From: a virus
DNA length: 24,648 nt
Virus record (IMG/VR): IMGVR_UViG_3300042519_000572
Location: 1-24,648 of that record
Strand: one strand, 5' to 3'
Position 1 is the first letter of the stretch, and every line of letters begins with the position of its first letter. Position numbers and translations under genes: made by a program. This document shows positions 1,047 to 23,994 of the stretch, one piece after another. The notes beneath the pieces were generated by a model. That model was not told the DNA's origin. It saw only the letters and a program-made list of their open reading frames with translations, and searched no databases.

Positions 1047-1054
1047 TATTTATC
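1047..1054 (-). promoter_or_regulatory. T4-type late promoter motif (GATAAATA) upstream of the 209-aa gene
   Basis: On the minus strand the 32-base gap between the protease stop (1074) and the next ATG (1041) contains GATAAATA, matching the T4-like late consensus TATAAATA/NATAAATA recognised by a gp55-type sigma factor. Only 5 bases (TCATT) separate it from the ATG. If the motif occupies -13 to -6 as in T4, transcription would start at the A of the start codon. A TATAAT hexamer just upstream (1062-1067) has no -35 partner that I can see. Confidence 0.7.
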
Positions 1055-6400: not shown

Positions 6401-9400
6401 ACATGCTCTTCGGGAGCATACCCTAATTGAGCATTTAAGAAGCCGCTGCCATTGACTGTTAAGTCTGTAGGATTTACTCCTAGTGCTCCAACAAAGTTGC
6501 CAGCACTGTCCCAGGATCCTGCTGTAAGTTCTGTGTCAACTCCGTTAACATTAAAATTATCTTTCCAAAATTCTAATTTTGGATATCCGTAAATATCAAC
6601 ATCAATATGATGACCACTTAGGCCTAGCCCACGAATAGTAAGAGCAAGTGTTCCGCTAGAAGTAGCAGTTGTTTCAACATATTCAGCCAATGAACTTGTT
6701 TGCAACGGCAAAGTAGAATAATCTAAGTAAACAGATGATGTTGAAACATCTTGAATAGAAATTAAAGTATCATAATAAACTGTTGTAGTGTTTATGATAT
6801 CATCAGCAAAAGAATATATCTTATAAGTTGATGTAACTTCGTAGTCTCTTAACATTGATGGAATACGAACTGTTGTGCCTGCTGGAGCAGAACGCACAGT
6901 CGATGTCGACAACACACTAGACCAGTGTGTGCCCGTTCCGATTGCAGTAAATCTATCTGTACCAACTCCAGTTACTTGATATCTACCGTCGAAGCCAGTA
7001 AGTGTTCCGCCTTCGCCTCCATTAATTCCCCAAATTTCTGCGTAGTCTCCTACTCTAATATCGCCGCCGAAATCTTCAACTGTGTAGAATACTAAAGTTC
7101 CTCTGGTAGTTAGGCTGTCAGACCAAACACGTTTAATTTGAAATTCATAATTACTAACTTCAATCGAGTTGGCGCCAGTGTTAACAGAAACAACTACAGT
7201 ATCTGTCCTTAGATAATTTAAGGCAGTGTTCGTTAAGATAATTTTCTGCCCTGGAGAAATTCCTTCAGTGGTACTTAATACTAGTGTACCTGTATTGTAA
7301 AGCGCATCTGCTACTAATTTTGCAGAAGCATAGTAATCAGTTAAGTCAGACCATGCAGAATTGTTGTCGTATGCTCCGTGGCCCCAAGGTGGAGAATAAT
7401 CAAATCTTAAACCTTGCAGTTGAGTCTCACCAAATTCTGCACCAGACATTAATAGAGGCAATTCTAGTCCAGGCATGCTGTCTGTAGGTTCGTAATAATT
7501 ATGAATTCTATCAACTGCTGTATAAAGGTTGATATTTTTATTATATGTAATTTTAAATATCTGTCCTTCACCAGGAACATAGTTTAAAAATACAAACCTA
7601 GAATATTTCTTAGTGTAATTATTATATGTTTCTGTATAATATTCAATAGTATAGTCAGTAGCAAGCACCAACTTACCATCTACTAATGGAGTAATATTAG
7701 ACTTGTTAGGTTCAGCTAACCAGCTAAGTACAAACTTATTTGCATCTCCTGAACAGACGAACGTTTCAGTTACTGTAGTATCACCTAATTCGTAGCCTGT
7801 ACCAACTCTGTCAAATTTAATACCAACAGTGTTTTTTCTAATTGTGTCATTACCCATTACAACTGATACAGTTGCAGTTGATGTCACGTACTGGCCGCCG
7901 CCAGTAATTGTAACTAGAGGAGGAGTAACATATCCAGAACCAGGATGAGTAACTAGAACTTTATATAGTTCACCGTTTCTAATATAGGCTTCTGCTTTAG
8001 CGCCGACGCCGCTATCTCCTAGAGCAGTAGTAATTTGGACGTTAGGTCGTTGAGTGTACCCTGCACCTTTATTTCCAACTTCAATAGATTTAACATAATA
8101 TTTGTAGTTGTCATTCCAAGACTTTCTAGGATACTCATCTAGCAATGTATTACCTAACTGCACAACTTCAAACTTTCCAGTAGAAGAGTTATAATAAGAA
8201 GGCAAATCAAAATCTGTCAAATATACAGATCCTTGGTCAACGTTATTATTATAGATAGATGTGTAAGATCTAATCTTTGTTCTATAAGGTTTTACTTCTT
8301 TAATATAATCTTCAAAGTATTGTTCATTTTCCAATTGATAAACAGATCTTTGATCTAAACTGCCTATGTTGTTTTTGACATTAATGAAAGAAGTTTTAAA
8401 TGCCCAATCGAGCAACTTCTGTTCAGTTAGTGCATATTTGACTGCCTTAAAGAATAATAGATTCCAGTTGATTTTTAAATCTCTAACAAAGATATCGTCT
8501 TTAAGTGCTGTTAAAATATAGAATAGCTCTAGATCAGGAATTTGATCATACAGAGTTTCCTCTAATGTTGCAACATCATAGGCATAGTTACTGTCCGAGT
8601 AGTTCCAAATAGTGTCCAGAATTTGAACAGTTCCATTTTGTCTATAAATGATATCGTAAGACGTTGAAAAATCACCTATTTCAGTGTCGGTTAACTTTTC
8701 TAAAATAATGTAATTACCATCTCCGGCATTTTTAATTTTTACGTAATCACCAGGTACTGTGTCATTTAGTGTTGCTACTTCATATGTATCATTAACAACA
8801 TATTTGTAATCTTTAAATCCGTCATAAGTAGACTTTACCCAATCAGCATATTTCCAGTACAATGGAGTATTATATGTTTGAGTTTTAATTCTTAACCATG
8901 TTTTGTACAAATAGTCGTAGATATGTTTTGTCCAGCGATTTCCGTATTCAGTGTTAACCTGTACAATCACTGTATGTGGTCTGACTACTACTACAGGACT
9001 TTCTTCAACGTAATTTGATCCAGGTGCAGTAACAACAGCATTAATTACTCGACCATTTACATCAATTTCTGTTTCAATAACTGCACCGATACCTGTTGTA
9101 GCGTTAACATTAACTTTTGGAGGTAATGCATATCCGAAGCCAGGATCTGTAACTACTGCACTAATTACTTTGCCGTTCAAAGTGAAACATTCAATGTATG
9201 CTTGTTTAAAAGTTGATGTATCGACCTCAGTTAACTCTTCTAGATCTTCAACAATTAAATCATACTCCCTATCTAATGCATCTGGAATTTCTTCCTTACG
9301 TTCTAAATTAGAAAAAGAATAATTACCTGTAATTCTACTGTCAATTAATACAGAATTAGCAAACTCAACAATATTTCTTAATGCTTGCAGTCTGTCTTTG

Positions 9401-12400
9401 AACAGAGTCTGTTGAGGTCTAATTCCAATTCCGTATTTGTTTCTATATGACAAATTGATGTCGGGTACTAGATTTCCTAATGCATCACGACCCAATAGAC
9501 TGTCAAATAGTTTTTTATTCAACATTGTATTTGGCATACTTGATGCTGAACCTTCTTCTAACAACAACCATTCTGTATGTCTAGGGATAGAATTTTTTAT
9601 TTCATCTGTAGAAATATTTGCATTAATATAATTTCCTATTAGCATAGGTTGAATATTTGCAAAAGCAACCGAGTCAGAAGATAAAATTTCAGCAAATTTC
9701 AAACCATTCGATACTGGATCCGCAATCAAACTCGAAACTTGATATGCACTGATTCTTCTATTTTTAGCATCAGGAATTAATACTTTATTCTTAACCCAGA
9801 AGAAAAAGACATTTTCAAATGAATTCGTTACAGTGTTCCAAACTTGCTTAACAGAAACAATACTGTTATCAGGATACTTAGGCTGACCACTGATACCATT
9901 AGTTAATCCTTCCGAAGTATCTGCTTGTGATGCCCATTCGGTAGGTAGTAAATTAGATTTGACCCATTCATAAACATCAATAGTTGCACCCGGGAATAGT
10001 TTACCCCAGTTATTTTTTCTAAAGATGTCATCGCCCTGTTCGTACCATACATACTTAGCGGTACTTAGATCCCACCACAATTCGCCAACGTGTTCGTCAA
10101 TCCAGTTAGTTTCAGAATCGTTGATTGTACCAATAGTACCTATAGAATATGTTGCAGGATCGGAAGCAGACTTATATTTTAACTCTTGTTCGGCAATTCC
10201 TGCAATTTTTCCTTTTAAAGGATCAATTACATCTAAGTATTCAATTACTTCTTCATTTACAGAATCAATTAAAACAATTCTCTTTACAGTATCAATTTCA
10301 ACTAGGTCTGGTTGCTCTCTCAGTAACGACCAGCTATTTTTTGTGTTGTCAATCTTATTGAACTGAAAGAATGTAGAGCCGTCTGCTTCAGATGCAGAAA
10401 CATACCACGGGGCTCCTACATAAACTGCATCATTTGTTGCAACAACAGATGTTCCATAACGACTACCTTCAATAAAGTCAGCATCGTTTAATTCTTCAGC
10501 CTGAATAAAATAATCACCCAGGTTGTTATAAACATAGACTGCACCAGCATCTGAAATAGGAGATATAAAACGTGTAGTTCCCTGGTCAAATGTAGTTTCA
10601 CCAAATCGAGTTCCTTCATCAAATCCGTAAATCTTAGATCTATTTTTTCCTAAAGAACTAACTGTTAATACTGTTTCGTTCTTGCTCAATGAAATAGCCT
10701 GACCAAATTTAAGATCGTTAGTAAGAACAGGATTGTCAATAACTTGACGAAGTATATATGTACCTGTAGATGTTAAGTTAGTAGCCGTGTAAACTGCAAC
10801 TTTACCAAAACCTTCACCGATCAGTTTTGTATTAACTGACGAGATGAACATAAATTTGCCAGAAGCAGATACGTATACATCGTCGCCAAATATATCAGTT
10901 GTTCCAAACGGTGAAACAATAGTTTGCTTCCAGTTTAAACTATTGTCAAAAATTTGAACAATACCCGAAGTGGAAGATGTAGTGTAGCCAGGAGCACTGA
11001 TAGCAATAAATTTGCCAGCATAATCTCCTGCAATCTTATGTCCCCATTGCATTTGAGAATTTTGTGTAATTCCTTCAGGTCTTAAAGATATGCCATCTTC
11101 TAAGTTAGAAGATAAGTGTTGTGTAATGCTAACAAGATTTGTTGCAGAAGTAGTTGTACTTAGGTAATAGGCATATACATGACCAGTTCCTGTATTGTTC
11201 ACGCCATCCCCTGGAGCACTAACAAGAAGTGTTGAAGAACTAGTAGAAACAACTTGATTTAAGTATATAGAATGACCAAATCTAGCATAGCTAGAAGTTG
11301 AATAAGTTACTGTGTCGTTGTAGTTAGGTCTTACTAAAACTTTCTGTGTTATTTCTTCATTAACTAAAGGTCTCTTTGAACTAATCTTTACAAGACCTTC
11401 AGAAACAAAAGACTTTGCATATCCACTGCCTGTGCTGAATAATATAGCACTTGTACCAGTAGAACGTACATTTGTTGCTTCAGGAGCTCCTGTAAAAATT
11501 AATTCTTTACTGTTGTCATAATTTAAAGAATAACCAAATCCAGTAGATAAAGATACGTCACAGTATATTTTATCGTTACTGTTCATTATATATTCAAACT
11601 GCTTGTCTAATGTTAGTCTGTTCTTTTCTAATACCGAAACTCGGCCAGTACTGTCGTAACTAGGAAAATCCCATGTAGGAGCAGAAACGATAACCAACGG
11701 AATATCATCCGAAGCATAGATTGAGAAACCTAACTGCTGTGCAATAGGAGATGCAGATGAATTAATTCCTATACCTGTATCATAATTTTTTATCTTTTGA
11801 TAGACTGCCCACTTGTCAGGTGCATTGTCAATCCATATTTTTTCACCTGTTTTAAGTTTACGTAGGTCAGGAACATTTTTTAATTCTTCAAAATTCTGAT
11901 AACGAACATCATCAAATTTAAACAATGCGCCGAACGCTAATAAGTCATCATTAACAATAGTTGTTAAACCAGATGCAACAGTAAATTGATTTAGTTCTGG
12001 AATTTCAGTAACAATGTAGACACCATTCACTTGATCATTAAATTTAACAACTGAAACAATATCACCCACTGCAAGACTGTGATGTATGTCAGTAGTAAAG
12101 GTAATAGCGGTTGCTGGCGCACTTACATACACTCCAGAAACTTTTGCAGTTTGTCTAGAATATCTATAAACATCCCAGTCACCATTCTCTAAGAACCCCA
12201 TCCAAATAGTGTCGCCTTCTTGAATAGAAGAATTGTTTGCAATGTCTAATAAACTATTTTTATTATATGCTGTAGATGTAACGTCATCTAATCTAACATA
12301 TCCAACAGTGGTTAAATCAATATTTGTATCTTCATAGCCTGTGCTATTGTATACTTTAAATGTCTGTGCAGGATTGTATCCCGATGGAGAAATTAATAAA

Positions 12401-15400
12401 TTTGTAGAAGATGTATAGTTAATTAAATTGCTGGCATTTGAAGGCATCTCAGAAATAAATTTAACAACATAAGGATTTTCAATTGCTGTACCTTCTTCTA
12501 GTTTAAATTCAATTTCTTTATATGTTTCAAATCCGCCAAAATGTCCTACTCTAAAAGCCCAATCTTCATTAAAAGAAACGTCACCTTTACGTGCAAAGGT
12601 TCCTGCTTTTACAATTTTATCAATTGCATTTCGAGTACCTTTTTCACGAATAAATCCTTGATAGAACTTGTATTGTGCTGTGGCATTGGTAAAGATATTG
12701 TTTAGATACGTGCGAGGAGTATAACCAATTAAATGTTGTGCTAACTGTTGTTGCCCGTAATCAAAGTTATCAATATCTAAGCTATAGAAATCTTCAAACT
12801 GATTGATCTTGTAGTCAAAATTAGGCAACAGATCAGGTGCAGGTTTTTTAGATAGTTTAACCCATTTGTTAAAATCAAAAGTTTCATCACCGTTTATACG
12901 TGTCGACGATTCATAATAGACACCGTTATATCTAACAACCTTTCCAGGAAGATAAATGCCATATGCTTTCCAGTCTGAAATTTCAACAGAGTCATATATA
13001 AAACCTGGACTGAACAAATCTCCATTCCAATTAGCAGTTCTAAAACCAGTAATCTTAACCCTACGTTGACGATATCCAGATTCAATGTCATAGATAGTAT
13101 CGTTGAAGATAGTGGTGTTATTAAACACAATTGCATGTTCTTTCTGAACAGAATTTAGTGTTGCAAAGAAAATACCTTCTTCTGTATTAAGTGTATTAAT
13201 TGTACAAACACCATCTTGCCTACTAAGATTAAAATTACTAATAGGAAAAGATTTCCCATCTGCTTTTAACAAACTGTACTCGTAATTTCCTGAGGCAATA
13301 TTATCTACAATAGAGTCTACAAATTTATATCTTAATGTGTTAGCAAAAGGACTTAGAGTAATTAAATTTCCATCGGCCCAGTTTTGTGTGGTCCAAAATA
13401 AGAATTCTTTTCCTGTAAATTGCCAGTCTAAAATTTCTTTTAGATCAGTACTGTATTGATCAAATAAGAATCCTTGTTTTTCTAAGTATGCTCCGTAACC
13501 TACAATTAAGTCATATACTTCTTGAATAGTGTTATACTCAGTCCCATAAGGAACTTCAGTTACTGCTGTTTCAAATTTTGTTGCCTGTTGTGCTGTTGCG
13601 CCCCCGGTCATAGGCAACGAAGACATCTGTTGAAAATAAGTTTCATCAAATGTACTGGTAGCAACGTGTCCTATTTTAACTCGATAAAAACGACTATTGT
13701 ATCGAACAATTTGTCCTTGCTTATAATATCGAGATGTGTTAGTTTCAACTGATGTAAGATCTGTTTCGCTTATTCCTGTGGTTCCATTATTAGTAACAGA
13801 AGTCCATTCTGTAAACGGAGAAGACACTCCGCCTACTGTAACTGCTCCCGAAGTTGCAGTCTTAATGGGTTTTAAAATTTCAAAATACGGATTACTTCTG
13901 TCATAGCCCTTGACAACAAATTTGCCATTTGACTTTTGAACAATGATTCCCGAGATATTAGCAGACTTAACAGGATTACTAATATTTAAAATAAATGCAC
14001 AGTCTTCAGGGGGTAAAACTGCACCCTGGCTTGTTGACACAGGGTCAATACTGTCAATGATAATTTGCAATTTTTCTTTGCTTGCAAATCCGCCTAATTT
14101 GTGAAATAGGTTGAAATCTAAGTAAGAAAGATCTTGCTGAAACTTAGCTACATATCCTAAATCAGTTTGTTTTCCTTTTTCAATTATTAACGAACCAACT
14201 CCAGAAATTTGATAATCACCTTCAACTAATAATTTTTTAGGATTTAAGTATAAGTCGCCCGCATAGACTAATTGATTAGATTGATTAAATGTTGTTCTGC
14301 TGACATCATACATAGACGATGTATAGTTACAAGGTTCTAACAATGCCGCCATTGCATTAACTGCAAACGGCCAATAACTACTGCGATGCCAGGCGGTTTC
14401 TGCAGGATTGCGGTCGCCAAATGCCCATGTAAATTTTTTATCAGAGTAAGCATTCTCTGAAACTAAAAACTGATCAGGTGCTTTTAAATTACCACTGGTA
14501 TCAACAGGGATGATTGTTAATAACTGCGAACGAGCATACTCTGTTTTGTATGTACCAGTTCCTCTTACATAACCATTCTTCAAATCGGTCCACATGAGTG
14601 TATTTGAAGAAGTATACGGCGCAGGCCCATACTCAATTGCCCACCAAGTAGGTTTAGTTGTAAATCCTAACATTTCCCATGGGTGGCTATGAGGGCGGTC
14701 TGTGTCATAGAAATATTGATATATTCCTCTCCAATATCCAGGAACAGTGTTAAAAAAGACAGAGTCTATGCTACCTTTATAATTCCAGGTAAACGAATTG
14801 TTTTCATCAAATGTAGAATTTGCAGAAACATCGACATTATACATTCCTGCCCAACGCATATAATCTTTTCTTAAAATTCTATTTGCATCATCTAACGTAT
14901 ACTTAGAATTTCTAAATGCACCGGGTATTGTAGATTTTACATCAAATATTTCAGTATTATAGATTACTTTAATGTTATTATAAACACGCTTTTCAAATTC
15001 AAGAATAATTTCATCTCGATAATCGCCATACGCCTGCATTACACTGCCGTCGTGACCCCTAATCATAGAAACATTGCCGCTAGTATAAGAAGTATCTATA
15101 TATAATTCAGGTTCATATTTTGGATACAGTCCTAGCTTAGACGGTGTTGGTGGTACAAAACAACCCAGTGTATCGAGATAAGTTACAATCTTAATCACAT
15201 CGTCTTTAACTAAAGAAGAAATTACAGTAACGGTACCGTCGATACTATCTATCTCGTAATCTTTTCCATAGATTAATTGTACATCGTTTAGATATATTAA
15301 AATAGATTTAAAACTTAGTATTGTTGGATCAAATTCTATCCCTAATGGATACACATAACTTGGAATAATTCCTACTGTATATTCTTTTACAGTGTTATCA

Positions 15401-17661
15401 GCACCATAAGGAAGCATATCTGATCTATAGTATGCAGACTTATTGTCTTTATGGTTGTTGATAAGTTTTAAAACATAGTCAAGCGCATCAGCAGGTGTTA
15501 GTTGACTGTCAACTGAAACTGACAATCTTAACAGATTCATCTTAAACTGATTATACTGTTCTGCACCAAATCGCAATGCATCTACGACATTGTGTTCTTT
15601 TTTACCCAAGAACATCATAGCAAATGCAATAGGATTAGAGTTAATAACTAATCTTGTTCCGTATTTTGTATAATCTGAAACATCTCTTAAATTGCTAGTT
15701 CCAGGAAATTTTCCCGTGAACTCAGCTGCAGACGAAACCATAGTTGACAAGTGGTCTTCCAACTCACTCAATGTCATGTCTGAAACATCGCTGTTTAGCG
15801 GATTGTTTGTTAAACTTAGAGGAGTTTCATAATAACCATTTTCGTTAGGTGTTTGTTCAGTAGTAATTTTTAATTGAACAACATCGTTAACCGAAAGAGT
15901 TCTATTAAATGTAACAGAAATATCACTGCCTGTATTAACTGTGGATGTAGTTTGTACATTGTTGATATAGGAAACAATTGATGAAGGTGTGCTATATGGT
16001 CTATCTAAAGAAGTTATAAAAATTGTATTGGTGTTTTCTTCAACTACCTGTGTTTCAATAATAGGTATTTGATATGACTCAGCATTTTTCCAAACATTAA
16101 CCAATGATGTTGTTCCGTCTGCATTATTAGATTTAATATATCCAATACCAGTTTTAACAAAAGAACTTACATTATCTACAGTTGAAGAAATTACATCTGT
16201 CATGAAATAGTTACTAAACAGATAACTACCTATTCCTACACTATTTTGATATCGAAGTGCAAATCCTAGAACAGAATCAGGTGTACCTGTTCCTACAGCA
16301 TAACCAAATAATTTACTTCCTGCAAAGTCATTTATATTTGCAGACTGTGTATAACTAACGCCGTCTGCGTCAAACAAGTCAAACAGGGGGGCTTGATTTA
16401 AAACTGTTCGTTGCTGAGATAATACCCACACTTGTTGGGATGTAGAATAGTAAAAACTCTTTCCTGAATTAACTATTCCGTAATTAACTGAGATAGAATT
16501 TAAGTCTTCAGGGGTATCTACTAATGTTAGATGTAAAACAGGAGATTCACTATTTGTATAAGCTACCTGATAAATTTTTCCTCTAACATTTTCATTTAAG
16601 TCAGCATTAAAGATAATCCGTTGCCCGTGTTCAAGCAATACGCCATCAATGTAGTAACCAAAAGACCCGTCTACTGTTTCAAATGCATTTTGTGTATCTG
16701 TATCAATTAAGTCAATATTTTGAATACCGGTTACACCAAATTTATAAAGTTGCAGGTTAGGCTTAAATTCTACAATAGGTCTTTTTGCTTTAGCAGTTAC
16801 TGGATATAATGCTGTTTGATTATTAATCTCAGCAGTAACTCTAATAACTTCTTTGTGCGTCCATCTATTGTAACGAGACCAAGGATTTAAATCTTGACTA
16901 GATTTATTGATTGTGATATATTCAGGAGTTATAGGAAGTTTTTTATCTCCATCAAACGGAAAATCATCAAACACTGTACTGTCAAAAGTTTCGTTATATC
17001 CTTGTGCTAGGGATTCGTTAACTTCTAACTTGTCAAAATCAACCAACTTGATTGCTTCGCCGACGCCTTCAACAATATATTCCTTACCTTGAATAATAGT
17101 TCCTGTTGTGCCAACTGTGGAAGTAGAGAATACCAACTTCATACCATTAGACACACTATAACCATTATCCATTAGATAATTAGGTTGACCTAACATTGAT
17201 ACTACTAGATTAGTTCCAGTATTATCAATTAAAATAGGTTCTGGTCCTGTAGGTAACCAGTAATATTCACTGTAATTAACTAACTTGTCCCAATCTATTA
17301 ACGGATCGTAAGAATAAAAATTAGATCTAAAAAGTCTGTCTAAGTCTTCAGTACGGCCACCCTGAATAGAAAGTTCGTTAATAATATCATCATACCCAAT
17401 GACATCGGTAATATTAGAAATAGAATCTCTTAAAACTAATGCAGGTTCTAACTGATAATTTTTACGAAGAGGCAAATCTTCTTTTAGATAAACATCATTT
17501 GCCGGATCATAGTTAGGAGTAACTTTAGACCCTATAAATCCATCAATCCTCTCTAACTGTGGAGTTTGAATTAATTGATCAATAGTACTAGATAAAAATT
17601 TATCGTTCTTATTTGATCTTAAGTATTCCGGTAATAAATTTACTGATTTTTTATCCGCCAT
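3463..17661 (-). CDS. Giant modular baseplate/tail structural protein, 4732 aa, in the gene 7 position
   Basis: A single uninterrupted frame of 14.2 kb starts 1 base after the gp6-like stop (TGA-A-ATG), with GGAA 6 bases before the ATG, so translation is probably coupled. No signal peptide or membrane segment is visible. Modules in order: an N-terminal region (1-150) with LPLRKNYQLEPALVLRD and DPLIDWDKLVNYSEYYWLP; VYLNG/GxDY-type beta modules (about 550-600 and 755-835); a Trp-rich block with HPWEMLGFTTKPTWW (about 975-1120); YKFYQGFIREKGTRNAI (about 1655); seven FG-GAP-like repeats (1970-2440); PGxGY hairpins (2830-2890 and 3195-3300) flanking a KEVKPYRTKIRSY segment (about 3125); a nidogen-like domain (about 3830-4045); and further VYLNGFLLRSGFDY modules (4237-4410) plus a DSERIEFFEKASNTLSNLRR segment (about 4475). 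T4 gp7 (about 1030 aa) holds this place after gp6, but I see no residue-level similarity. It is probably a baseplate periphery or adhesin protein; the exact role is inference. Confidence 0.9.
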   Translation of the reverse strand: MADKKSVNLLPEYLRSNKNDKFLSSTIDQLIQTPQLERIDGFIGSKVTPNYDPANDVYLKEDLPLRKNYQLEPALVLRDSISNITDVIGYDDIINELSIQGGRTEDLDRLFRSNFYSYDPLIDWDKLVNYSEYYWLPTGPEPILIDNTGTNLVVSMLGQPNYLMDNGYSVSNGMKLVFSTSTVGTTGTIIQGKEYIVEGVGEAIKLVDFDKLEVNESLAQGYNETFDSTVFDDFPFDGDKKLPITPEYITINKSSQDLNPWSRYNRWTHKEVIRVTAEINNQTALYPVTAKAKRPIVEFKPNLQLYKFGVTGIQNIDLIDTDTQNAFETVDGSFGYYIDGVLLEHGQRIIFNADLNENVRGKIYQVAYTNSESPVLHLTLVDTPEDLNSISVNYGIVNSGKSFYYSTSQQVWVLSQQRTVLNQAPLFDLFDADGVSYTQSANINDFAGSKLFGYAVGTGTPDSVLGFALRYQNSVGIGSYLFSNYFMTDVISSTVDNVSSFVKTGIGYIKSNNADGTTSLVNVWKNAESYQIPIIETQVVEENTNTIFITSLDRPYSTPSSIVSYINNVQTTSTVNTGSDISVTFNRTLSVNDVVQLKITTEQTPNENGYYETPLSLTNNPLNSDVSDMTLSELEDHLSTMVSSAAEFTGKFPGTSNLRDVSDYTKYGTRLVINSNPIAFAMMFLGKKEHNVVDALRFGAEQYNQFKMNLLRLSVSVDSQLTPADALDYVLKLINNHKDNKSAYYRSDMLPYGADNTVKEYTVGIIPSYVYPLGIEFDPTILSFKSILIYLNDVQLIYGKDYEIDSIDGTVTVISSLVKDDVIKIVTYLDTLGCFVPPTPSKLGLYPKYEPELYIDTSYTSGNVSMIRGHDGSVMQAYGDYRDEIILEFEKRVYNNIKVIYNTEIFDVKSTIPGAFRNSKYTLDDANRILRKDYMRWAGMYNVDVSANSTFDENNSFTWNYKGSIDSVFFNTVPGYWRGIYQYFYDTDRPHSHPWEMLGFTTKPTWWAIEYGPAPYTSSNTLMWTDLKNGYVRGTGTYKTEYARSQLLTIIPVDTSGNLKAPDQFLVSENAYSDKKFTWAFGDRNPAETAWHRSSYWPFAVNAMAALLEPCNYTSSMYDVSRTTFNQSNQLVYAGDLYLNPKKLLVEGDYQISGVGSLIIEKGKQTDLGYVAKFQQDLSYLDFNLFHKLGGFASKEKLQIIIDSIDPVSTSQGAVLPPEDCAFILNISNPVKSANISGIIVQKSNGKFVVKGYDRSNPYFEILKPIKTATSGAVTVGGVSSPFTEWTSVTNNGTTGISETDLTSVETNTSRYYKQGQIVRYNSRFYRVKIGHVATSTFDETYFQQMSSLPMTGGATAQQATKFETAVTEVPYGTEYNTIQEVYDLIVGYGAYLEKQGFLFDQYSTDLKEILDWQFTGKEFLFWTTQNWADGNLITLSPFANTLRYKFVDSIVDNIASGNYEYSLLKADGKSFPISNFNLSRQDGVCTINTLNTEEGIFFATLNSVQKEHAIVFNNTTIFNDTIYDIESGYRQRRVKITGFRTANWNGDLFSPGFIYDSVEISDWKAYGIYLPGKVVRYNGVYYESSTRINGDETFDFNKWVKLSKKPAPDLLPNFDYKINQFEDFYSLDIDNFDYGQQQLAQHLIGYTPRTYLNNIFTNATAQYKFYQGFIREKGTRNAIDKIVKAGTFARKGDVSFNEDWAFRVGHFGGFETYKEIEFKLEEGTAIENPYVVKFISEMPSNASNLINYTSSTNLLISPSGYNPAQTFKVYNSTGYEDTNIDLTTVGYVRLDDVTSTAYNKNSLLDIANNSSIQEGDTIWMGFLENGDWDVYRYSRQTAKVSGVYVSAPATAITFTTDIHHSLAVGDIVSVVKFNDQVNGVYIVTEIPELNQFTVASGLTTIVNDDLLAFGALFKFDDVRYQNFEELKNVPDLRKLKTGEKIWIDNAPDKWAVYQKIKNYDTGIGINSSASPIAQQLGFSIYASDDIPLVIVSAPTWDFPSYDSTGRVSVLEKNRLTLDKQFEYIMNSNDKIYCDVSLSTGFGYSLNYDNSKELIFTGAPEATNVRSTGTSAILFSTGSGYAKSFVSEGLVKISSKRPLVNEEITQKVLVRPNYNDTVTYSTSSYARFGHSIYLNQVVSTSSSTLLVSAPGDGVNNTGTGHVYAYYLSTTTSATNLVSITQHLSSNLEDGISLRPEGITQNSQMQWGHKIAGDYAGKFIAISAPGYTTSSTSGIVQIFDNSLNWKQTIVSPFGTTDIFGDDVYVSASGKFMFISSVNTKLIGEGFGKVAVYTATNLTSTGTYILRQVIDNPVLTNDLKFGQAISLSKNETVLTVSSLGKNRSKIYGFDEGTRFGETTFDQGTTRFISPISDAGAVYVYNNLGDYFIQAEELNDADFIEGSRYGTSVVATNDAVYVGAPWYVSASEADGSTFFQFNKIDNTKNSWSLLREQPDLVEIDTVKRIVLIDSVNEEVIEYLDVIDPLKGKIAGIAEQELKYKSASDPATYSIGTIGTINDSETNWIDEHVGELWWDLSTAKYVWYEQGDDIFRKNNWGKLFPGATIDVYEWVKSNLLPTEWASQADTSEGLTNGISGQPKYPDNSIVSVKQVWNTVTNSFENVFFFWVKNKVLIPDAKNRRISAYQVSSLIADPVSNGLKFAEILSSDSVAFANIQPMLIGNYINANISTDEIKNSIPRHTEWLLLEEGSASSMPNTMLNKKLFDSLLGRDALGNLVPDINLSYRNKYGIGIRPQQTLFKDRLQALRNIVEFANSVLIDSRITGNYSFSNLERKEEIPDALDREYDLIVEDLEELTEVDTSTFKQAYIECFTLNGKVISAVVTDPGFGYALPPKVNVNATTGIGAVIETEIDVNGRVINAVVTAPGSNYVEESPVVVVRPHTVIVQVNTEYGNRWTKHIYDYLYKTWLRIKTQTYNTPLYWKYADWVKSTYDGFKDYKYVVNDTYEVATLNDTVPGDYVKIKNAGDGNYIILEKLTDTEIGDFSTSYDIIYRQNGTVQILDTIWNYSDSNYAYDVATLEETLYDQIPDLELFYILTALKDDIFVRDLKINWNLLFFKAVKYALTEQKLLDWAFKTSFINVKNNIGSLDQRSVYQLENEQYFEDYIKEVKPYRTKIRSYTSIYNNNVDQGSVYLTDFDLPSYYNSSTGKFEVVQLGNTLLDEYPRKSWNDNYKYYVKSIEVGNKGAGYTQRPNVQITTALGDSGVGAKAEAYIRNGELYKVLVTHPGSGYVTPPLVTITGGGQYVTSTATVSVVMGNDTIRKNTVGIKFDRVGTGYELGDTTVTETFVCSGDANKFVLSWLAEPNKSNITPLVDGKLVLATDYTIEYYTETYNNYTKKYSRFVFLNYVPGEGQIFKITYNKNINLYTAVDRIHNYYEPTDSMPGLELPLLMSGAEFGETQLQGLRFDYSPPWGHGAYDNNSAWSDLTDYYASAKLVADALYNTGTLVLSTTEGISPGQKIILTNTALNYLRTDTVVVSVNTGANSIEVSNYEFQIKRVWSDSLTTRGTLVFYTVEDFGGDIRVGDYAEIWGINGGEGGTLTGFDGRYQVTGVGTDRFTAIGTGTHWSSVLSTSTVRSAPAGTTVRIPSMLRDYEVTSTYKIYSFADDIINTTTVYYDTLISIQDVSTSSVYLDYSTLPLQTSSLAEYVETTATSSGTLALTIRGLGLSGHHIDVDIYGYPKLEFWKDNFNVNGVDTELTAGSWDSAGNFVGALGVNPTDLTVNGSGFLNAQLGYAPEEHVKGQTFDSVSINVYTQENNSSPLVISGAVPVVSGRVSVTTLPHPVTESVGVQVEYKGLIFDRLDTPPDPGTIGPYFSSSLATPIGVSGAPIGASAGDDTFTGPYSLGFNWNMFGTVYTEVYVGTNGYVTFGGGDTEYTPLNIDALENPSIMVMFCDLWQAIGESGQLLENGQLPGLWFDTGTISGTTTQFNYWRLRFQGSHYQKRDEPGVLPAYQYELGLYSDGVNQYVEMIYENTWREYDPLNASSSVPNGGFITGISNQNGANAVQVPYTSIQNNTSHVFYSTSEGGNWQYAGQGSFDPNKEPYNFTARNQFFIYDRTLYIAPQTTTGRAGYTLMTMGGDYLLDSNLVSVSDQSSVLIPSLASIDDVRSVYVTVNGTQIFETLSTSSYGYMVSPTGIENNRAAVTVYNIPAGTNVIQAWFFETNYPEFNGVWTEYFNITTTTTVLNLTKPIANIEPISAQVLVEYEALAGAGRRRLSPPDVTYYKFDGTQLTFNIDNKPRPSGTYSIETVHVYLNGFLLRSGFDYTLSVSNSTITFPTGLLVNGDAIAIESLIDYDYIVSGNTVILSTPLTSGSVKVTTFTDHDGMLIRTERFSGNSMRRFTLSLPVISAEYVWVYVDGAPLIPGYDFGLLPDQRTIQLSEWIFVNTSNDIMITSINSPLRNNVTLGYRIFKDIFDRTSYTRLSDFYSTRLTKELTLTDTEIHVEDSSRLIPPNPIRNIPGVVFVDSERIEFFEKASNTLSNLRRSTHGTAPALFSEVGTKLMDQSTQQQVPYSDVIKKQYHITTSTTNARVLSTVTNSFNTYTFVISTSSYSTDVGPYQFVCDGITLSTSTDATNQVTIKYGGRTLRKTSTLVHDSRRAYDTTSTSLVTLDSEFTVVYNSLTNNHELKLNIEGFVSGVRLEIEQRTGQFWQPIEEVSANEWVIKSSLLTAVTPQAMFIQQKTTELPDYYYYGGDPTLTDNNNFELTDDNNNPIEGY
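5521..6174 (-). other. Nidogen-like (NIDO-type) domain in the giant protein
   Basis: Residues about 3830-4047 read GPYSLGFNWNMFG, then TEVYVGTNGYVTFGGG, then a hydrophobic IMVMFCDLW segment, FNYWRLRFQG, YQYELGLYSDGVNQYVEMIYENTW, and a closing GFITGISNQNG. This succession (smooth/folded N-terminus, VYVGTNGYVTFGG, D-containing core, W-R-x-R-F, E-x-x-L-Y, GI-N) resembles nidogen-type extracellular domains and related phage and bacterial surface domains. The assignment rests on motif order seen by eye, so it is tentative. Confidence 0.45.
7762..8094 (-). other. Second PGxGY repeat group in the giant protein
   Basis: Residues about 3190-3300 hold KGAGYTQRPNVQI, then VTHPGSGYVTPPLVTI, then a decayed copy, RVGTGYELGDTTVT. 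Between the first two lies AKAEAYIRNGELYKVL, matching the strand-NG-strand connector of the other pair. With the pair at 8977-9189 this makes five copies, which suggests internal duplication of a small beta-module. Confidence 0.6.
8977..9189 (-). other. PGxGY beta-hairpin repeat pair in the giant protein
   Basis: Residues about 2825-2895 contain two related units, VTDPGFGYALPPKVNV and VTAPGSNYVEESPVVVV, separated by a strand-loop-strand (IETEIDVNGRVINAV). The pattern V-T-x-P-G-x-x-Y-x-x-x-P-x-V recurs further along the same protein at 7762-8094. Such units look like stacked beta-hairpins of phage fibre shafts; no function is demonstrated. Confidence 0.6.
10342..11754 (-). other. Seven FG-GAP-like repeats (predicted beta-propeller) in the giant protein
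   Basis: Seven copies follow the pattern (F/W/Y)G-x-S/x-I/V ... hydrophobic-VSAP/ISAP ... G-x-V-x-V/I-Y/F, with the aromatic anchor near residues 1979 (LGFSIYAS), 2042 (GFGYSLNY), 2128 (RFGHSIYL), 2206 (QWGHKIAG), 2258 (IFGDDVYV), 2319 (KFGQAISL) and 2402 (RYGTSVVA). Spacing is 52-86 residues. VSAP-like second motifs are clear in copies 1-4 (VSAP, TGAP, VSAP, ISAP) and 7 (VGAP), and weaker in 5 and 6 (ISSV, VSSL). The count and spacing fit one seven-bladed propeller like that of integrin alpha subunits. The DxDxDG calcium loop of integrins is not evident. Confidence 0.72.
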
Positions 17662-17662
17662 T

Positions 17663-20600
17663 TCATGTTCCGCTAGTTGTTACGATTGAAGATGATGCTT
17701 TCAATTGTGATGCTGTGATGCCGTCGATAATTTCAATGTCATTAATAGTTACGCCGCTGATAAAAATTTCATCAGACTGACATGCAACTTCGTATAGACT
17801 TCCAAAACTAGTATCATTTTTTGGTACAATTACAAAGTTACTAATATCAGGTGTCAAGCTGTTCATGACATACGCAGACAATTCACTAAAATAAAACGTT
17901 TGACCAAATTCCCAGTTTTCTAAAGCAAAAAATTCATTGATTGCTGTTAATATTCTTGTTTTAATATCATTGTCTGTAGTTGCTTTATTAGAATTCTTAA
18001 CAGCTTTAAAAACTGCCCGTAAATTAGAATCTGCTTTACTACCAAACAATACTTTATATTTTACAGGGTGAAAAATAATTTCATCGCTGATTGCCTTAAT
18101 AGGTTCTAATTTTTCTCTATAATTTTGTTCTAGACTTTGACTTGTAGGAGCAAACGGTTCTCTAGTTGTGTTTCCTGCAATCCAACTTCTAAACTCATTA
18201 TCATATGACAATGTTAAAACATACACGTCAATTAAATTTGTCTTGCTAGGATCAATTCTTTTTTCATCACCGCTATTATGTACATACTGGAATTTTAAAT
18301 CAGAGCGGCCAACTCTTCCATAGTATTCGTCTGTGAATAAAAGAGAGTTAGTCCCCGAAGACCAGTACTTAACTACATCTTCGTCTGGTGAATAGAAATA
18401 AAACAAATCGCCGTTTTCAATAGGTTGGTTTAATTGTAACTGATTATATTTGTAAGTATTCCAACTTGTTTCAGATTCGATTGAATCTCTAATATCAGTT
18501 GACAGATTGTATCTTAGCCCGTCTGCTTGTTTTTTAAAATAGATATAATTATCGCCAACAAGTTTTGTAAATGCTTCCGGATCTGCTATATAACCAGTAT
18601 TATTATAATCATAAAAACTAACACGAACTTTTTTAGGATCGACATAACCGTCTGACTCTATAACAGCTCCGTCAATTTGCCATGAGTAATCTAAACCTAA
18701 CTGTCCCGAAATGTTAGAACTTTGACTCCAAATTCCAGATTCATTTTTAAAGATTTTATTAGTTGCAGTGTTTAGATAAAAGTCGCCCGAACTACCTATT
18801 GATGATGTAGGATTGGATCCGCCGCCGTACCACGTAACTGATTCAACGGGTTGAGTATTAACTGACAACACATCAATTTTATCTTTAATAACAGTATTAG
18901 ATACAAAATCGTAGTTAACTGACGTATCGTCTATGAAAAACCCTGTTTCATTTTCACTTTCAAAAATGTGATTTAATGTTCTAAACTTAACTCTATATTT
19001 CTTTCCTGTCCAAATAAATGCAATAATCCAGCTAGAGTCTAATCCTAGATCTTCGACATTATTTTGTGTTGCAAGATTAAATGCATTCGTTGTATTCAAA
19101 TTTGAATTTAAGATGATGCTCCAGGTTCTTGAACCTGCATCAATAGTTAGACCAAAATTTCTCTGCGTCATGCAAATGTTTGCAATTTCATTTTCGATAG
19201 AAAAACTTAAAATACTACTGTATTTCGGAAGAACTTCAACAGGTATAGCACTCAAGGCCACTGTTCCGTTTCCAGGAACCCGTGTTGAGAAAATAACAGG
19301 ACCTGTTCCGTCATCCAGTGTGCCCGATCCTGAATTAGCACCATCACCTATAACTTGACTAACTCCTGCCCAGAAATAAGTTTTTCCATTTGTAGGAATT
19401 ACATTGTTAGCAGGAATAGATTTTAAATTATTGTTTTCGTCAAAGTATTTTCCAGATGGTGCAACAAATTTTACAGATGCTCCTGCTTCAACATATTTTA
19501 AATTGCTGTCTGAATACAAACCAACAGACTGAGGGCCAGATGAATTTTTAAAATAACCTCTGCTTTGTCCAGGTGTTTTATTAACTTCAACCCATGTCAA
19601 ACTTAGAGAAGTTATACTTGCTCTTTCATAGTTGTCAAAGTAAAAAGATCTTAAATTAGGTTGTGCAACAATAGGTGCTAACTGATTTTTAATAACCGAT
19701 AGCACTTGATTTCTACTAGAAAACTCAAATTCAAAAAATTCTTCTTTTAGTTCTTTATATAATAAACCGTCAGTGGCAAAAATATTTGTATTACTATAAC
19801 GTCCGCTAACATCTGCAATATCAAAATATTTGCTTAGTCCACTTGAAATTCTATTGATACTCTTAACTTTAAGAATATCAGATCCTGCGGTTAAAGGCCC
19901 GATGTTATAATCTTCGCCTGTGATCATTCTATTTTGAAGATAGTATGCTTGAGGCGCCTTTGTTTGTATGCTAGAATTTGACTCTGGTCCGGCACTATTT
20001 GTAACAGTGTACTGCAAACTCATAGTAACTTGCAGAGTATGGCTTTGACCCGAAGCACTAACATAAGGAATTGAAATAACAACTCCGCTCATTTGCTCAG
20101 GTTTAACAACATAATTAAGACCGTTACTCTGTCTATAAAATAGTCTAAAGTCACCCTTGGGTAAGTCTCCGAATACTCCGTCGGCAAAGTTTAAATCAAT
20201 CTGATCTTCATCTCTTGTAGATATAGCGTATATAGTTCTTAGATCTTGATTCAAACTGTTATAAACAACATTGTTGCCTATTAAGCTAGGAACACCAGTC
20301 CATAATGTATCAAATCCACCATTCTTATCTAATTGCCATAACCAAACATCAGTGTTGTTAATGTCGGGTGTATTGACTCCTACAATTTCGTTAGGAACAG
20401 GATTATCAAGGCCGAATTTAGCCATGCTTAGTGTACCTTGACGGAAGTGAGCAAAGAATCCTGTGTTTACACTGGATGATCCTTGATTATCATTTTTATA
20501 AATGATGCTAAAGGCACCTGCTGGTTCCGGAGCTTCTTCATAGATGTATGTTTTTCGCGAGAATGTACAGGGTACAATCTCGAAACTCATAGGCGTGCCG

Positions 20601-21208
20601 TTGATGTTTTTGCTAAAATTATAGATAGGAACATCTGTGTTTGCACTATTGATACGATACTGTTCTGTGCTAATACCGCTGATTGTATCTCTATCTGCTG
20701 GATTTCCAAAATTAGAAGTCATAGCAGAGTTCATAATATTAATGAACTGCTGGTACCAGTCTGGGTTAGTAGGATCGTTCCAACCTATTGTAGTGTTTGC
20801 TAAATTTGTACCGTTAGAATCATAAACATTGTCGGATGTTTGTACCGCAGTTACTTTTAAGAAGCCGTTAGCAGGCATATTTCTTGCAGGATTATAACTA
20901 ACCAATTGAGCTAAACGTAGAATACTATCTCGGCGCTGTGCAGTTTCTAAGAAGTTTTCACGAGCATTTAAATCAATGCGGAAACTTAGATTCTGACCTA
21001 GATAAGCAATGAGATCGATAAGAGCAACGTACTCACTGCTGTCAATAAAATCGTTAAATTCTTCAGGATAATTTTCCTGAAGATAAGAAATCATAGTGCG
21101 GCGGAGTGTTTCAAAATCGTAACTTTTGAAGTCAGCGTTTCTGAAAGACTGGTAGATTTTTTTCCAATCTTCACTTACTAATATTTTTGAATTTGTTGCT
21201 GGAATCAT
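17663..21208 (-). CDS. 6: Baseplate wedge protein, T4 gp6-like (J family), enlarged, 1181 aa
   Basis: The N-terminus is typical of gp6/J-type wedge proteins. Residues about 30-114 contain DFETLRRTMISYLQ, EYVALIDLIAYLGQNLSFR, a NARENFLETA helix and RRDSILRLAQLVSYNPARN. The C-terminus (about 1041-1127) has DEIIFHPVKYKVLFGSKAD, ILTAINEFFALENWEFGQTFYFSEL and NFVIVP, the conserved C-terminal domain of the family. In T4, gp6 forms the inner ring of the baseplate and joins wedges. At 1181 aa it is nearly twice T4 gp6 (about 660 aa). The extra sequence is in the middle and is beta-rich, including YFWAGVSQ (about 615) and a GDFYLNTATNKIFKNESGIW unit (about 806-825) of a kind seen in phage fibres. The ATG at 21208 has no clear Shine-Dalgarno site; a late promoter lies 21 bases upstream. 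The giant gene starts 1 base after its TGA. Confidence 0.9.
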   Translation of the reverse strand: MIPATNSKILVSEDWKKIYQSFRNADFKSYDFETLRRTMISYLQENYPEEFNDFIDSSEYVALIDLIAYLGQNLSFRIDLNARENFLETAQRRDSILRLAQLVSYNPARNMPANGFLKVTAVQTSDNVYDSNGTNLANTTIGWNDPTNPDWYQQFINIMNSAMTSNFGNPADRDTISGISTEQYRINSANTDVPIYNFSKNINGTPMSFEIVPCTFSRKTYIYEEAPEPAGAFSIIYKNDNQGSSSVNTGFFAHFRQGTLSMAKFGLDNPVPNEIVGVNTPDINNTDVWLWQLDKNGGFDTLWTGVPSLIGNNVVYNSLNQDLRTIYAISTRDEDQIDLNFADGVFGDLPKGDFRLFYRQSNGLNYVVKPEQMSGVVISIPYVSASGQSHTLQVTMSLQYTVTNSAGPESNSSIQTKAPQAYYLQNRMITGEDYNIGPLTAGSDILKVKSINRISSGLSKYFDIADVSGRYSNTNIFATDGLLYKELKEEFFEFEFSSRNQVLSVIKNQLAPIVAQPNLRSFYFDNYERASITSLSLTWVEVNKTPGQSRGYFKNSSGPQSVGLYSDSNLKYVEAGASVKFVAPSGKYFDENNNLKSIPANNVIPTNGKTYFWAGVSQVIGDGANSGSGTLDDGTGPVIFSTRVPGNGTVALSAIPVEVLPKYSSILSFSIENEIANICMTQRNFGLTIDAGSRTWSIILNSNLNTTNAFNLATQNNVEDLGLDSSWIIAFIWTGKKYRVKFRTLNHIFESENETGFFIDDTSVNYDFVSNTVIKDKIDVLSVNTQPVESVTWYGGGSNPTSSIGSSGDFYLNTATNKIFKNESGIWSQSSNISGQLGLDYSWQIDGAVIESDGYVDPKKVRVSFYDYNNTGYIADPEAFTKLVGDNYIYFKKQADGLRYNLSTDIRDSIESETSWNTYKYNQLQLNQPIENGDLFYFYSPDEDVVKYWSSGTNSLLFTDEYYGRVGRSDLKFQYVHNSGDEKRIDPSKTNLIDVYVLTLSYDNEFRSWIAGNTTREPFAPTSQSLEQNYREKLEPIKAISDEIIFHPVKYKVLFGSKADSNLRAVFKAVKNSNKATTDNDIKTRILTAINEFFALENWEFGQTFYFSELSAYVMNSLTPDISNFVIVPKNDTSFGSLYEVACQSDEIFISGVTINDIEIIDGITASQLKASSSIVTTSGT

Positions 21209-21229: not shown

Positions 21230-21237
21230 TATTTATT
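21230..21237 (-). promoter_or_regulatory. T4-type late promoter motif (AATAAATA) upstream of gp6
   Basis: The 49-base gap between the gp25 stop (21258) and the gp6 ATG (21208) contains AATAAATA on the minus strand, ending 21 bases before the ATG. With T4-like spacing, transcription would begin near 21224, leaving a leader of about 16 bases (TCGAATAGTAAAAATC) without an obvious Shine-Dalgarno site. I found no further copy of the motif until 1054, so this promoter may serve gp6, the giant gene, the collagen-like gene and the protease. Confidence 0.75.
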
Positions 21238-21257: not shown

Positions 21258-21695
21258 TTATTGTGCTGTTAGCCCTAGCTTCTGATCAAACACTAACTTC
21301 ATCGTAGTTGATTCGTCTGTGTTCCTCATGGCTAAAGTAATTTCAACAAGATACCCCTGCTCATATTCACTGATATCTATCTGAATTGGATAAGCTCTAG
21401 GATCAAAGCTACAGATAGCCTCTATGTCTTGTTGTAATAGTTCTCTGACGTGTTCGGTTAACGGTTCCATTATTAAGTCCCAGACAATGGTTCCGAACGT
21501 AGGATTCATAACCCTACTTCCTTTACGTGTGTTAAAATGATTTAAGATGTCTTGTTTGATTAAATCAAAGTCGTACAACTTAGATCCGTAGTTTGTAGAA
21601 TCTACCGTACTGAAGCCGCGATAAAACTGACTTAGTCGGTTAGTATGCTGACTATTGTAATTAGAAACGTTAATTTCAAGGTTCTTGTAAGGCAT
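21258..21695 (-). CDS. 25: Baseplate wedge protein gp25 (GpW/gp25 family), 145 aa
   Basis: This is a short protein of the gp25/W family, close to T4 gp25 in length (132 aa). The family core is clear: FDLIKQDILNHFNTRKGSR at about 43-61 (the TRKGSR motif is near-invariant), NPTFGTIVWDLIMEPLT at 64-80, a helix EHVRELLQQDIEAICSF, and DPRAYPIQIDI (98-108), which corresponds to the E/D-P-R motif, followed by a C-terminal strand pair. In T4, gp25 joins gp6 and gp53 in the wedge core and primes sheath assembly. About 40 N-terminal residues (INVSNYNSQHTNRLSQFYRG) precede the core. The ATG at 21695 is the only plausible start, because the next Met is residue 63, inside the core. It has no Shine-Dalgarno site at normal distance, and a late promoter motif sits 4 bases upstream. 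Confidence 0.96.
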   Translation of the reverse strand: MPYKNLEINVSNYNSQHTNRLSQFYRGFSTVDSTNYGSKLYDFDLIKQDILNHFNTRKGSRVMNPTFGTIVWDLIMEPLTEHVRELLQQDIEAICSFDPRAYPIQIDISEYEQGYLVEITLAMRNTDESTTMKLVFDQKLGLTAQ

Positions 21696-21699
21696 ACTA

Positions 21700-21707
21700 T
21701 ATTTATT
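21700..21707 (-). promoter_or_regulatory. T4-type late promoter motif (AATAAATA) overlapping the gp5 stop codon, 4 bases before gp25
   Basis: The minus-strand sequence across the junction is TAATAAATATAGTATG: the gp5 stop TAA (21708-21706), a late-promoter octamer sharing bases with it, four bases (TAGT), then the gp25 ATG. With T4 geometry (motif at -13 to -6) the first transcribed base falls within one base of the ATG, so the mRNA would be essentially leaderless. Confidence 0.72.
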
Positions 21708-23994
21708 AGCCGCCAGAACCAGTCTTTATAGGGTTCCCAGAACCATCAGTTACAATGCCGCCTGTGCCAGATTGTACAGTTGCTCCTTGCAATTGCCCTA
21801 AGAAACACTCGTAATAGCCCTTCTTTTTAGCTTTAATATCGGCTGTGTTAAATCCAACAGACTTACAGGCAGCTTCAAAATAGTTAGGATCTGTTTGTGC
21901 AACTTTGCATCTGTCAAGCATATACTTGACACTGACTTCGGCTGCTATAGCAGGATTAGAAAGCAAGGACGGATTGCCTAAAAGATCCTGTCCTACCATA
22001 GTTCCGTATTTAGAATAGTTTGCTCGACCAGTTAATTGAATGTAGCCGCGTCCAATATATTTTCCGCCGTCGCCGGCTTGTGTATTGCCTAGACCTTTAC
22101 CTTTGGCAGTTGTATAACCGTATAGAAACTCAGGTAAACTATTATTAGGATTGCCTGCATATTGTTGAGCAAGAGCTTTATCGCCTTTAAACACACTAGG
22201 GAATACTTGTAACAATCTATCTGCTGAATAATTAAACCCTTCATTAACTAACTTCCATCGACATTCACCGCCTGCGATACCTAACAAAGATGCTACTGCA
22301 TACGGACTTGTTAAACCATATTTTGCACAGGCTGCTTTAAGAGCTGCAATACCCGGAGCCGAAGAACTAGCATTGATATCTTTAGCATACTCTGGACTAC
22401 ATGTTCCTGCTACTACTTCTTCTTGGTTTGCAGGCTCTTGACTTCCTGTGGCAGGATTTGGTGCTACACCGCCTGCACTCCTGTCTGCAAGAGTTGCATC
22501 AGTTGCCGCAGGTGTAAATTTAGAAGGGTTAATATTTTCGTGCTGATCCCACGGCTCATGTGTAGGAACTCGTTGCATAATACTCTTAATGCTATTCCCC
22601 TTATAGAATACACTATTTGCCCAACCAGCGGCGGCACTTCTATTAGGTAATGTAAACAATGGTAGGTCTGGTGGTGTTTCTGCAGTATCTGCAGGTGTAG
22701 GTGCGGCGGCGGATGGACCGTTTAAGTGAATTGCCGAACCGGATGCTATAATATTTCCATTAGCTCCCAGGTTTAATTGCCCCGCTGTGCCTATGCTAAT
22801 AGTGCCCTCTGCCCCAAAATTTATTGTTGCACCTGCACTGGATTTAATATCGTTTGCTACATTAAGATTGTAAGAATTTGCAATGCTTACTTTTGTAAGA
22901 CCGCCAATAGTTTCATCGTGGGTACCTCTAACAGATATCTTTTGATCTTGATCAACTGTTAGATAATTGTATCCTGTGATATTAGTTTCCATGTTCTTGC
23001 CGGCACGCACATGAATATTACGACCTGCTTCTATGTTAATATCACGGTCGGCTCGGAAGTTAAAATCTTGTTCACTGTGAATGCTAACGCTGTCTGCTGC
23101 ATATATATCAATCTTACCATTGCTAGTCATTTCAATCCATGCTGTACCTTTACTATTAGCAATGTAGATTAGGTCTTGACTGTTGTGCATCAAGATTTGA
23201 TGTCCAGTTCTTGTACGCAATCTAACTAATTCATTTTGTCCATTAACATCCCCGTCATCCATAACAAAGGTAGTTCCTCCGAGTCTGCTTACAGGTGCTT
23301 GAGCATTACCTTCATAACCAATTCTACCTCGACGGGCTCCGGGACTATCATCTAATGGACCAGGTGTGCTAATGCCAAATACTCCGCTAGGTACTTCTCG
23401 GCGAGCACTACTCGACGTAACACCGCGAATTGTATCTAGCAATAATCCTTGTTGTAATAACCTATCGGCAAAAGGATGCACAGGTTTTGCAAAACGATCA
23501 GGATTAGGGTTTTCTAATTTTTTAGAACTCTTGTGAAACTCTGCAACTGGCAGATAATCAGTTCCGTACTTTCTTCTTTGTTCATCTGTTAGTGCAGTTT
23601 GCTTTGTGGCTGCAATTCCCGGAGTCATGTGATTCTGGAATATGTCTTGTACGCATCCAAAAAAGTAACCTTGATTAGGGTCTCCGTCTATGAACAGGAC
23701 CATAACTGTTGTTCCAACATCCGGCGGAACCATCCACATTCCGTAACTTTTTTGTACATCATTAAAGTCACTGCTGTTAGTACCTTCGTATCTAATAGAT
23801 GTTGTTCCTGCAAAGGGACTTAGATATCTAACTACATAAGTTTCGCCCTTTTCTTTAGTGGAACTGGGCATGCCTTTTAAAAGTGCAACTTCAAGACAGC
23901 CCATGTATGTAGGGTCAAGGTGGTTTGTTACTTCTGCTAGGAAAGGACCTGGGGAAGGCAACGGTGACCGCGATCTGGTTTCAAAAGACGCCAT
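21706..23994 (-). CDS. 5: Baseplate hub/tail-spike protein, gp5-like, with C-terminal GH19 lysozyme domain, 762 aa
   Basis: Residues about 15-120 form the gp5/VgrG OB fold (GPFLAEVTNHLDPTYMGCLEV, VRYLSPFAGTTS, then SYGMWMVPPDVGTTVMVLFI and DGDPNQGYFFGCVQD). Residues about 285-425 are a beta-helix of 8-10-residue repeats (DFNFRADRDINIEAGRNIHV, KISVRGTHDETIGG, INFGAEGTISIGTAGQLNLG) that would trimerise as the spike shaft. A Pro/Ala/Thr-rich linker (about 426-530) leads to a C-terminal GH19 chitinase/endolysin-type domain (about 545-735) with candidate catalytic E577 in IAGGECRW, NEGFNYSADRLLQVFP and GRGYIQLTGRANYSKYG. The protein would puncture the envelope and cleave peptidoglycan during injection. 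In T4 gp5 the lysozyme is a GH24 domain placed between OB fold and helix, so domain type and order both differ. The ATG at 23994 has GGGAT upstream and lies 4 bases after the previous stop. Confidence 0.93.
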   Translation of the reverse strand: MASFETRSRSPLPSPGPFLAEVTNHLDPTYMGCLEVALLKGMPSSTKEKGETYVVRYLSPFAGTTSIRYEGTNSSDFNDVQKSYGMWMVPPDVGTTVMVLFIDGDPNQGYFFGCVQDIFQNHMTPGIAATKQTALTDEQRRKYGTDYLPVAEFHKSSKKLENPNPDRFAKPVHPFADRLLQQGLLLDTIRGVTSSSARREVPSGVFGISTPGPLDDSPGARRGRIGYEGNAQAPVSRLGGTTFVMDDGDVNGQNELVRLRTRTGHQILMHNSQDLIYIANSKGTAWIEMTSNGKIDIYAADSVSIHSEQDFNFRADRDINIEAGRNIHVRAGKNMETNITGYNYLTVDQDQKISVRGTHDETIGGLTKVSIANSYNLNVANDIKSSAGATINFGAEGTISIGTAGQLNLGANGNIIASGSAIHLNGPSAAAPTPADTAETPPDLPLFTLPNRSAAAGWANSVFYKGNSIKSIMQRVPTHEPWDQHENINPSKFTPAATDATLADRSAGGVAPNPATGSQEPANQEEVVAGTCSPEYAKDINASSSAPGIAALKAACAKYGLTSPYAVASLLGIAGGECRWKLVNEGFNYSADRLLQVFPSVFKGDKALAQQYAGNPNNSLPEFLYGYTTAKGKGLGNTQAGDGGKYIGRGYIQLTGRANYSKYGTMVGQDLLGNPSLLSNPAIAAEVSVKYMLDRCKVAQTDPNYFEAACKSVGFNTADIKAKKKGYYECFLGQLQGATVQSGTGGIVTDGSGNPIKTGSGG
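21790..22362 (-). other. GH19-type glycoside hydrolase (lysozyme/chitinase) domain of the hub protein
   Basis: This stretch encodes residues about 545-735 of the gp5-like protein. GH19 hallmarks seen are a helix ending in the catalytic Glu (LLGIAGGECRW, E577), NEGFNYS with a second acidic residue E585, LLQVFPSVF, a short A-QQYAGNP segment, a LYGYTTAKGKG loop, GDGGKYIGRGYIQLTGR, then NYSKYG, LLGNPSLLSNP and AAEVSVKYM. The domain follows the common phage GH19 endolysin layout but has IAGGECRW where many have HESGG. It is inferred to act on the glycan strands of peptidoglycan. Confidence 0.88.

Follow-up and report, generated by a model that had tools for sequence, protein, structure and literature searches.

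The stretch of DNA analysed here (the window, 24,648 nt of IMG/VR virus record IMGVR_UViG_3300042519_000572) is a virus fragment whose entire length matches part of the 167-kb contig G001 at 99.97% identity. Its minus strand carries a series of baseplate genes in which a gp5-like gene, gp25 and a gp6-like gene follow each other closely. The features relevant to this analysis are the following, in coordinates of the window:

21706–23994, minus strand: gp5-like baseplate hub/lysozyme gene with a GH19-like domain, assigned by profile searches
21706–21708, minus strand: stop codon TAA of the gp5-like gene, with two bases common to the octamer
21700–21707, minus strand: putative late-promoter octamer AATAAATA, 4 nt before the gp25 ATG and kept in relatives
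21696–21699, minus strand: spacer TAGT, with T (a pyrimidine) at -1 of the gp25 ATG
21693–21695, minus strand: gp25 start codon ATG, whose A is the predicted transcription start according to the offset of the pyrimidine-purine step
21258–21695, minus strand: gp25 baseplate wedge gene, 145 aa (PF04965 GPW_gp25, 6.2e-11; phrog_43, 4.4e-18)
21230–21237, minus strand: octamer AATAAATA, predicted ordinary leadered late promoter, 21 nt before the gp6 ATG
17663–21208, minus strand: gp6-like baseplate wedge gene, 1181 aa (phrog_10646, 2.8e-290)
1047–1054, minus strand: octamer GATAAATA, 5 nt before the ATG (1041–1039) of the ORF at 412–1041, the second octamer-on-ATG gene in the window
412–1041, minus strand: 209-aa protein of unknown function (phrog_11259) with an octamer-on-ATG start

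Read directly, the minus strand from 21708 to 21693 is exactly TAATAAATATAGTATG, in which the gp5 stop, the octamer and the gp25 start are joined as TAA-TAAATATAGT-ATG. An earlier note on this DNA, which had placed a stop codon, a late-promoter octamer and a start codon within these 16 bases, was thus exact on the minus strand, and its gene identities hold as well: PF04965 and phrog_43 identify gp25, and the upstream gene is a gp5-like hub/lysozyme. It had also stated that gp25 has no alternative start before its conserved core and no Shine–Dalgarno (SD) site at normal distance. Both statements are confirmed in the sequence, since no in-frame ATG, GTG or TTG separates the gp25 ATG from the core, and an SD is missing at normal spacing because the octamer occupies that place. 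Scans of the region for sigma-70 promoters and terminators gave results near shuffle level.

Several neighbouring genes have features of their own. The GH19-like (chitinase/endolysin) domain forms the C-terminal part of the gp5-like hub protein (21706–23994, minus strand). On the 3' side of gp6, a single ORF of 4732 aa (3463–17661, minus strand) stands where jumbo relatives have gp7-like wedge or virion structural genes. Immediately 5' of the 209-aa gene, among virion genes, lies a subtilase-family protease (PF00082; 1074–2741, minus strand).

The late promoter system of T4 comprises the sigma factor gp55 and the octamer TATAAATA (PMC2988020, PMC1524935), from which AATAAATA differs by a single mismatch at the poorly conserved first base. 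In the window ATAAATA is rarer than expected (3 copies versus 13.7 expected from shuffling), and all three copies fall in minus-strand intergenic gaps, at distances of 4 nt from the gp25 start, 21 nt from that of gp6 and 5 nt from that of the ORF at 412–1041. The octamer-on-ATG arrangement of the latter is also found in G001, G004, G005, G007 and G008.

Alignment of the gp25 junction among relatives, a check proposed in the earlier note, reveals that motif and spacing are both conserved: the octamer lies 4–7 nt before the ATG in 77 of 80 gp25 relatives (viral contigs, 57–100% identity), the exceptions being L058, L062 and L063. The position of the gp5 stop is variable, as it may lie ~20 nt upstream (L008), overlap the octamer as in the window, or be provided by the TAA within the octamer. 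The conserved unit is therefore the octamer together with the ATG, not the stop, and a dependence of the octamer on the gp5 stop was rejected on the relatives with a distant stop, which keep the octamer-ATG pair. The overlap between octamer and gp5 stop described in the earlier note is consequently real but incidental. At the gp25 junctions of G005, G006, G007, G008 and G010, the upstream gene ends on the TAA contained in the octamer (nATAAATA). An octamer of this kind likewise provides the stop of the upstream gene at an 81-aa gene after the portal gene in G001, G004–G007 and G010, and stop, promoter and start are thereby packed into ~15 nt. In a gp25 tree, junctions without octamer-on-ATG are scattered, by inspection, over several separate places. 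A scan with gp25 of phage PA5oct gave only two further loci. Two phage-like contigs of 153 and 335 kb (L304 and L305; PBPT01000082.1 and PBPT01000016.1), binned in a Marinimicrobia metagenome-assembled genome (MAG), encode gp25 of 41% identity with GTAAATA 4 nt before the ATG, and the arrangement thus occurs in a marine relative too.

Judged from sequence, the single site of the earlier note is not isolated but belongs to a class that is found throughout the clade and comprises about 22 gene families. In eight related contigs (G001 and G004–G010, ~830 kb; genes called by a simple greedy ORF caller), the spacing between ATAAATA and ATG is bimodal, with 38 genes at 4–8 nt, 57 at 13–60 nt, one at 9–12 nt and none at 0–3 nt. 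ATAAATA occurs 3–8 nt before an ATG 28 times in four genomes versus 0.31 expected (20 permuted words give 0–15), and close before an ATG 38 times in eight genomes versus 0.40 expected, counts that are not independent because the contigs are related, so that p-values on them would be too strong. A chance origin was rejected on the shuffle counts in the window and the excess in four and eight genomes. Variants, which were added once the first result had been seen, are likewise registered to the ATG in the eight genomes (GTAAATA, 14 versus 0.32 expected; CTAAATA, 5 versus 0.44). Including GTAAATA, CTAAATA and TTAAATA, the class comprises 60 ATG-started genes in 22 families, versus 3 doubtful GTG or TTG starts, and its families include the terminase large subunit, tail tube, head-tail adaptor (connector), virion proteins and baseplate gp25. 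Octamers TATAAATA or NATAAATA, as expected of T4-type late promoters, are present in the gaps before late genes. In this uncultured group of T4-related phages, about one third of the putative late octamers are located 4–8 nt before an ATG; the others have a leader, in many cases with an SD.

A gp55-like late sigma is encoded (phrog_12791, 6.5e-85; phrog_234, 3.5e-26). An octamer 45 nt upstream of its gene (G001:60806–61747) suggests that this sigma may promote its own expression. The C-terminal domain of the gp45 clamp (PF09116) was not found in four contigs, which are possibly incomplete, although it was found in the T4 control. Searches for phage S21 (PF01165) and IF3 (PF00707), as helpers of leaderless initiation, found neither. 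As for clues to the host, G001 contains no tRNAs, and the only matches in a genome collection were the phage-like contigs in the Marinimicrobia MAG, which are not host evidence.

The T4 late octamer spans -13 to -6 (PMC1524935), and strict T4 geometry with a 4-nt spacer would put +1 on the T of the gp25 ATG. In leadered promoters, the commonest pyrimidine-purine step has its purine at offset 6 past the octamer in T4 (0.48) and in RaK2, PA5oct and Atu_ph07 (0.53), and at offset 5 in the leadered promoters of this clade (0.45). The class is dominated by spacings of 5 and 4, at which offsets 6 and 5, respectively, fall on the A of the ATG. At gp25, with its spacing of 4, a start on the A of the ATG is predicted only with the clade's one-base-shorter offset, and spacings of 7–8 would give leaders of 1–3 nt. 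In keeping with this position of the purine, a pyrimidine precedes the ATG in 58 of 60 octamer-on-ATG genes, compared with 48% of other genes, and in 57 of 59 distinct octamer-on-ATG gp25 junctions. Pyrimidine is the majority base at -1 in all families with ATG starts (22/22), and this family-level agreement is a safer figure than raw counts. A pyrimidine at -1 is a signature of the polymerase. The predicted RNA 5' ends of the class are also less folded (mean -1.69 versus -2.97 kcal/mol).

An SD core is present in 8% of octamer-on-ATG genes, 40% of leadered octamer genes and 42% of others, a rarity in the class that is partly mechanical because the octamer fills the SD position. In 14 of 59 gp25 junctions an SD-like word is present, though only on the 5' side of the octamer, and gp25 orthologs without an octamer on the ATG possess an SD core in 15 of 19 cases. 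The octamer could accordingly be read as a translation-initiation element, either an SD substitute or an AU-rich ribosome site at -12 to -5, since it stands at the SD position, keeps a fixed register with the ATG and, in gp25 orthologs, takes the place of the SD. This reading is nevertheless very unlikely. ATAAATA is concentrated in gaps away from any start codon (46% of all its sites lie in gaps that lack an ATG at 4–8 nt, versus mostly 4–10% for permuted words) and is therefore more than a start-codon element, a result that disfavours an SD substitute in particular. It also precedes, at 13–60 nt, genes that in many cases retain an SD, and gp25 of PA5oct and Atu_ph07 has the octamer 23–33 nt upstream, with a leader containing an SD. 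Moreover, the octamer matches that of T4 late promoters in genomes encoding a gp55-like sigma, and the -1 pyrimidine is a mark of the polymerase.

Alternatively, the octamer may be a real promoter while gp25 is translated only from longer messages, its translation being coupled to that of gp5 or reinitiated after it; initiation at the ATG would then benefit the genes further downstream. The gp5 stop is only 10 nt from the gp25 ATG, and 30 of 38 class genes have a co-directional upstream neighbour. We regard this as unlikely: gp6 has its own octamer 21 nt upstream, the spacing is kept in relatives whose stop lies ~20 nt upstream, and the registration of octamer to ATG and the -1 pyrimidine would need no selection. 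In addition, 8 of the 38 sites face a divergent gene and cannot be served by co-directional read-through; at G006:75078–77056, two divergent octamer-on-ATG genes have a 29-nt gap in common, with one octamer per direction. It is even conceivable that promoter and start are neighbours by chance, through nothing but tight packing and with their distance not under selection, as coding density reaches 97–99% and intergenic gaps are very short. Because the gaps are short, octamers were placed at random within the same gaps as a control, which predicts 18.6 at 0–3 nt, 21.2 at 4–8 nt and 11.9 at 9–12 nt; the numbers observed are 1, 48 and 2. Packing alone, which also leaves the -1 pyrimidine unexplained, was rejected by this control and is extremely improbable. 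In the nearly empty zone at 9–12 nt, a leader would presumably not be long enough to hold an SD, yet would exceed what counts as leaderless.

The explanation we consider probable is that T4-type late promoters across this clade start transcription on the A of the ATG, or within 1–2 nt of it, and give leaderless late mRNAs. From the motif, its conservation, the bimodal spacing, the -1 pyrimidine, the low SD frequency and the sigma gene, all read in the sequence, we infer promoter activity, the exact start and leaderless translation. The octamer AATAAATA at 21707–21700 would be a late promoter of the T4 type, to which the phage gp55-like sigma presumably directs the host RNA polymerase. Transcription would begin at the gp25 ATG, on its A or no more than 1–2 nt away, and a promoter so close to the start codon should yield messages that open with the AUG and lack a ribosome-binding leader; ribosomes would then start through the 5'-terminal AUG rather than an SD. 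Two predictions of the earlier note gain from these data. The late promoter it proposed appears clearly as a promoter-like signal in the clade genomes, alongside a gp55-like sigma, and the transcription start it expected at or next to the ATG is made more plausible by the -1 pyrimidine, the matching offset of leadered promoters and the nearly empty 9–12-nt zone.

The clade has in common with the T4 late system the octamer core, the weak first base, the pyrimidine-purine step ~6 nt past the octamer, a gp55-like sigma and late structural genes. In contrast, T4 octamers lie at least 12 nt from the ATG, with a leader, and none is found at the 4–8 nt of the class described here. Among the records searched, gp25 and gp6 point to the jumbo phages RaK2, 121Q, CBB, PA5oct and Atu_ph07 as the closest cultured relatives; in CBB, an ATAAATA late motif has been predicted at 35 places (PMC5259590). 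Unlike those of the clade, the gp25 starts of these five phages use an SD and have no octamer on the ATG. Genes with an octamer at 4–8 nt are absent from RaK2 and number two each in PA5oct and Atu_ph07, and cyanophage Syn9 likewise has an ATAAATA late-type motif upstream of genes, but none at 4–8 nt from an ATG. A general T4-like feature was rejected on the absence of such octamers from T4, RaK2 and Syn9; the octamer-on-ATG class, which was seen in neither T4 nor a cyanophage, occurs sporadically at best in those cultured relatives that were examined.

Lambda cI is a known leaderless phage mRNA. Leaderless mRNAs can be initiated by 70S ribosomes at a 5'-terminal AUG (reviewed in PMC9031893). 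The messages predicted here resemble leaderless bacterial and phage mRNAs in their 5' end at the AUG, little 5' structure and lack of SD, and differ in that they are predicted, from sequence, for a set of late genes under the direction of a sigma throughout a phage clade. Leaderless mRNAs are known, as are late promoters of the T4 type; their systematic combination, and leaderless late mRNAs in T4-type phages, were not found described in the literature searched, with subscription journals outside the search.

A late-stage switch in translation, in which part of the virion programme is carried by leaderless mRNAs favoured late over leadered host and early phage messages, is distinctly unlikely on present evidence; ribosomes altered by the phage or by stress (e.g. 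70S initiation) would in that case prefer leaderless messages. The late promoters of T4 and the cultured relatives examined lie far enough upstream to give a leader. If leaderless late transcription is true of this clade, its phages would offer a naturally occurring collection of virion genes expressed without leaders, and each genome would supply its own controls in the leadered promoters used by the same sigma. The start sites of class genes would then be readable from DNA, and gene callers trained on SD sites may misplace such starts.
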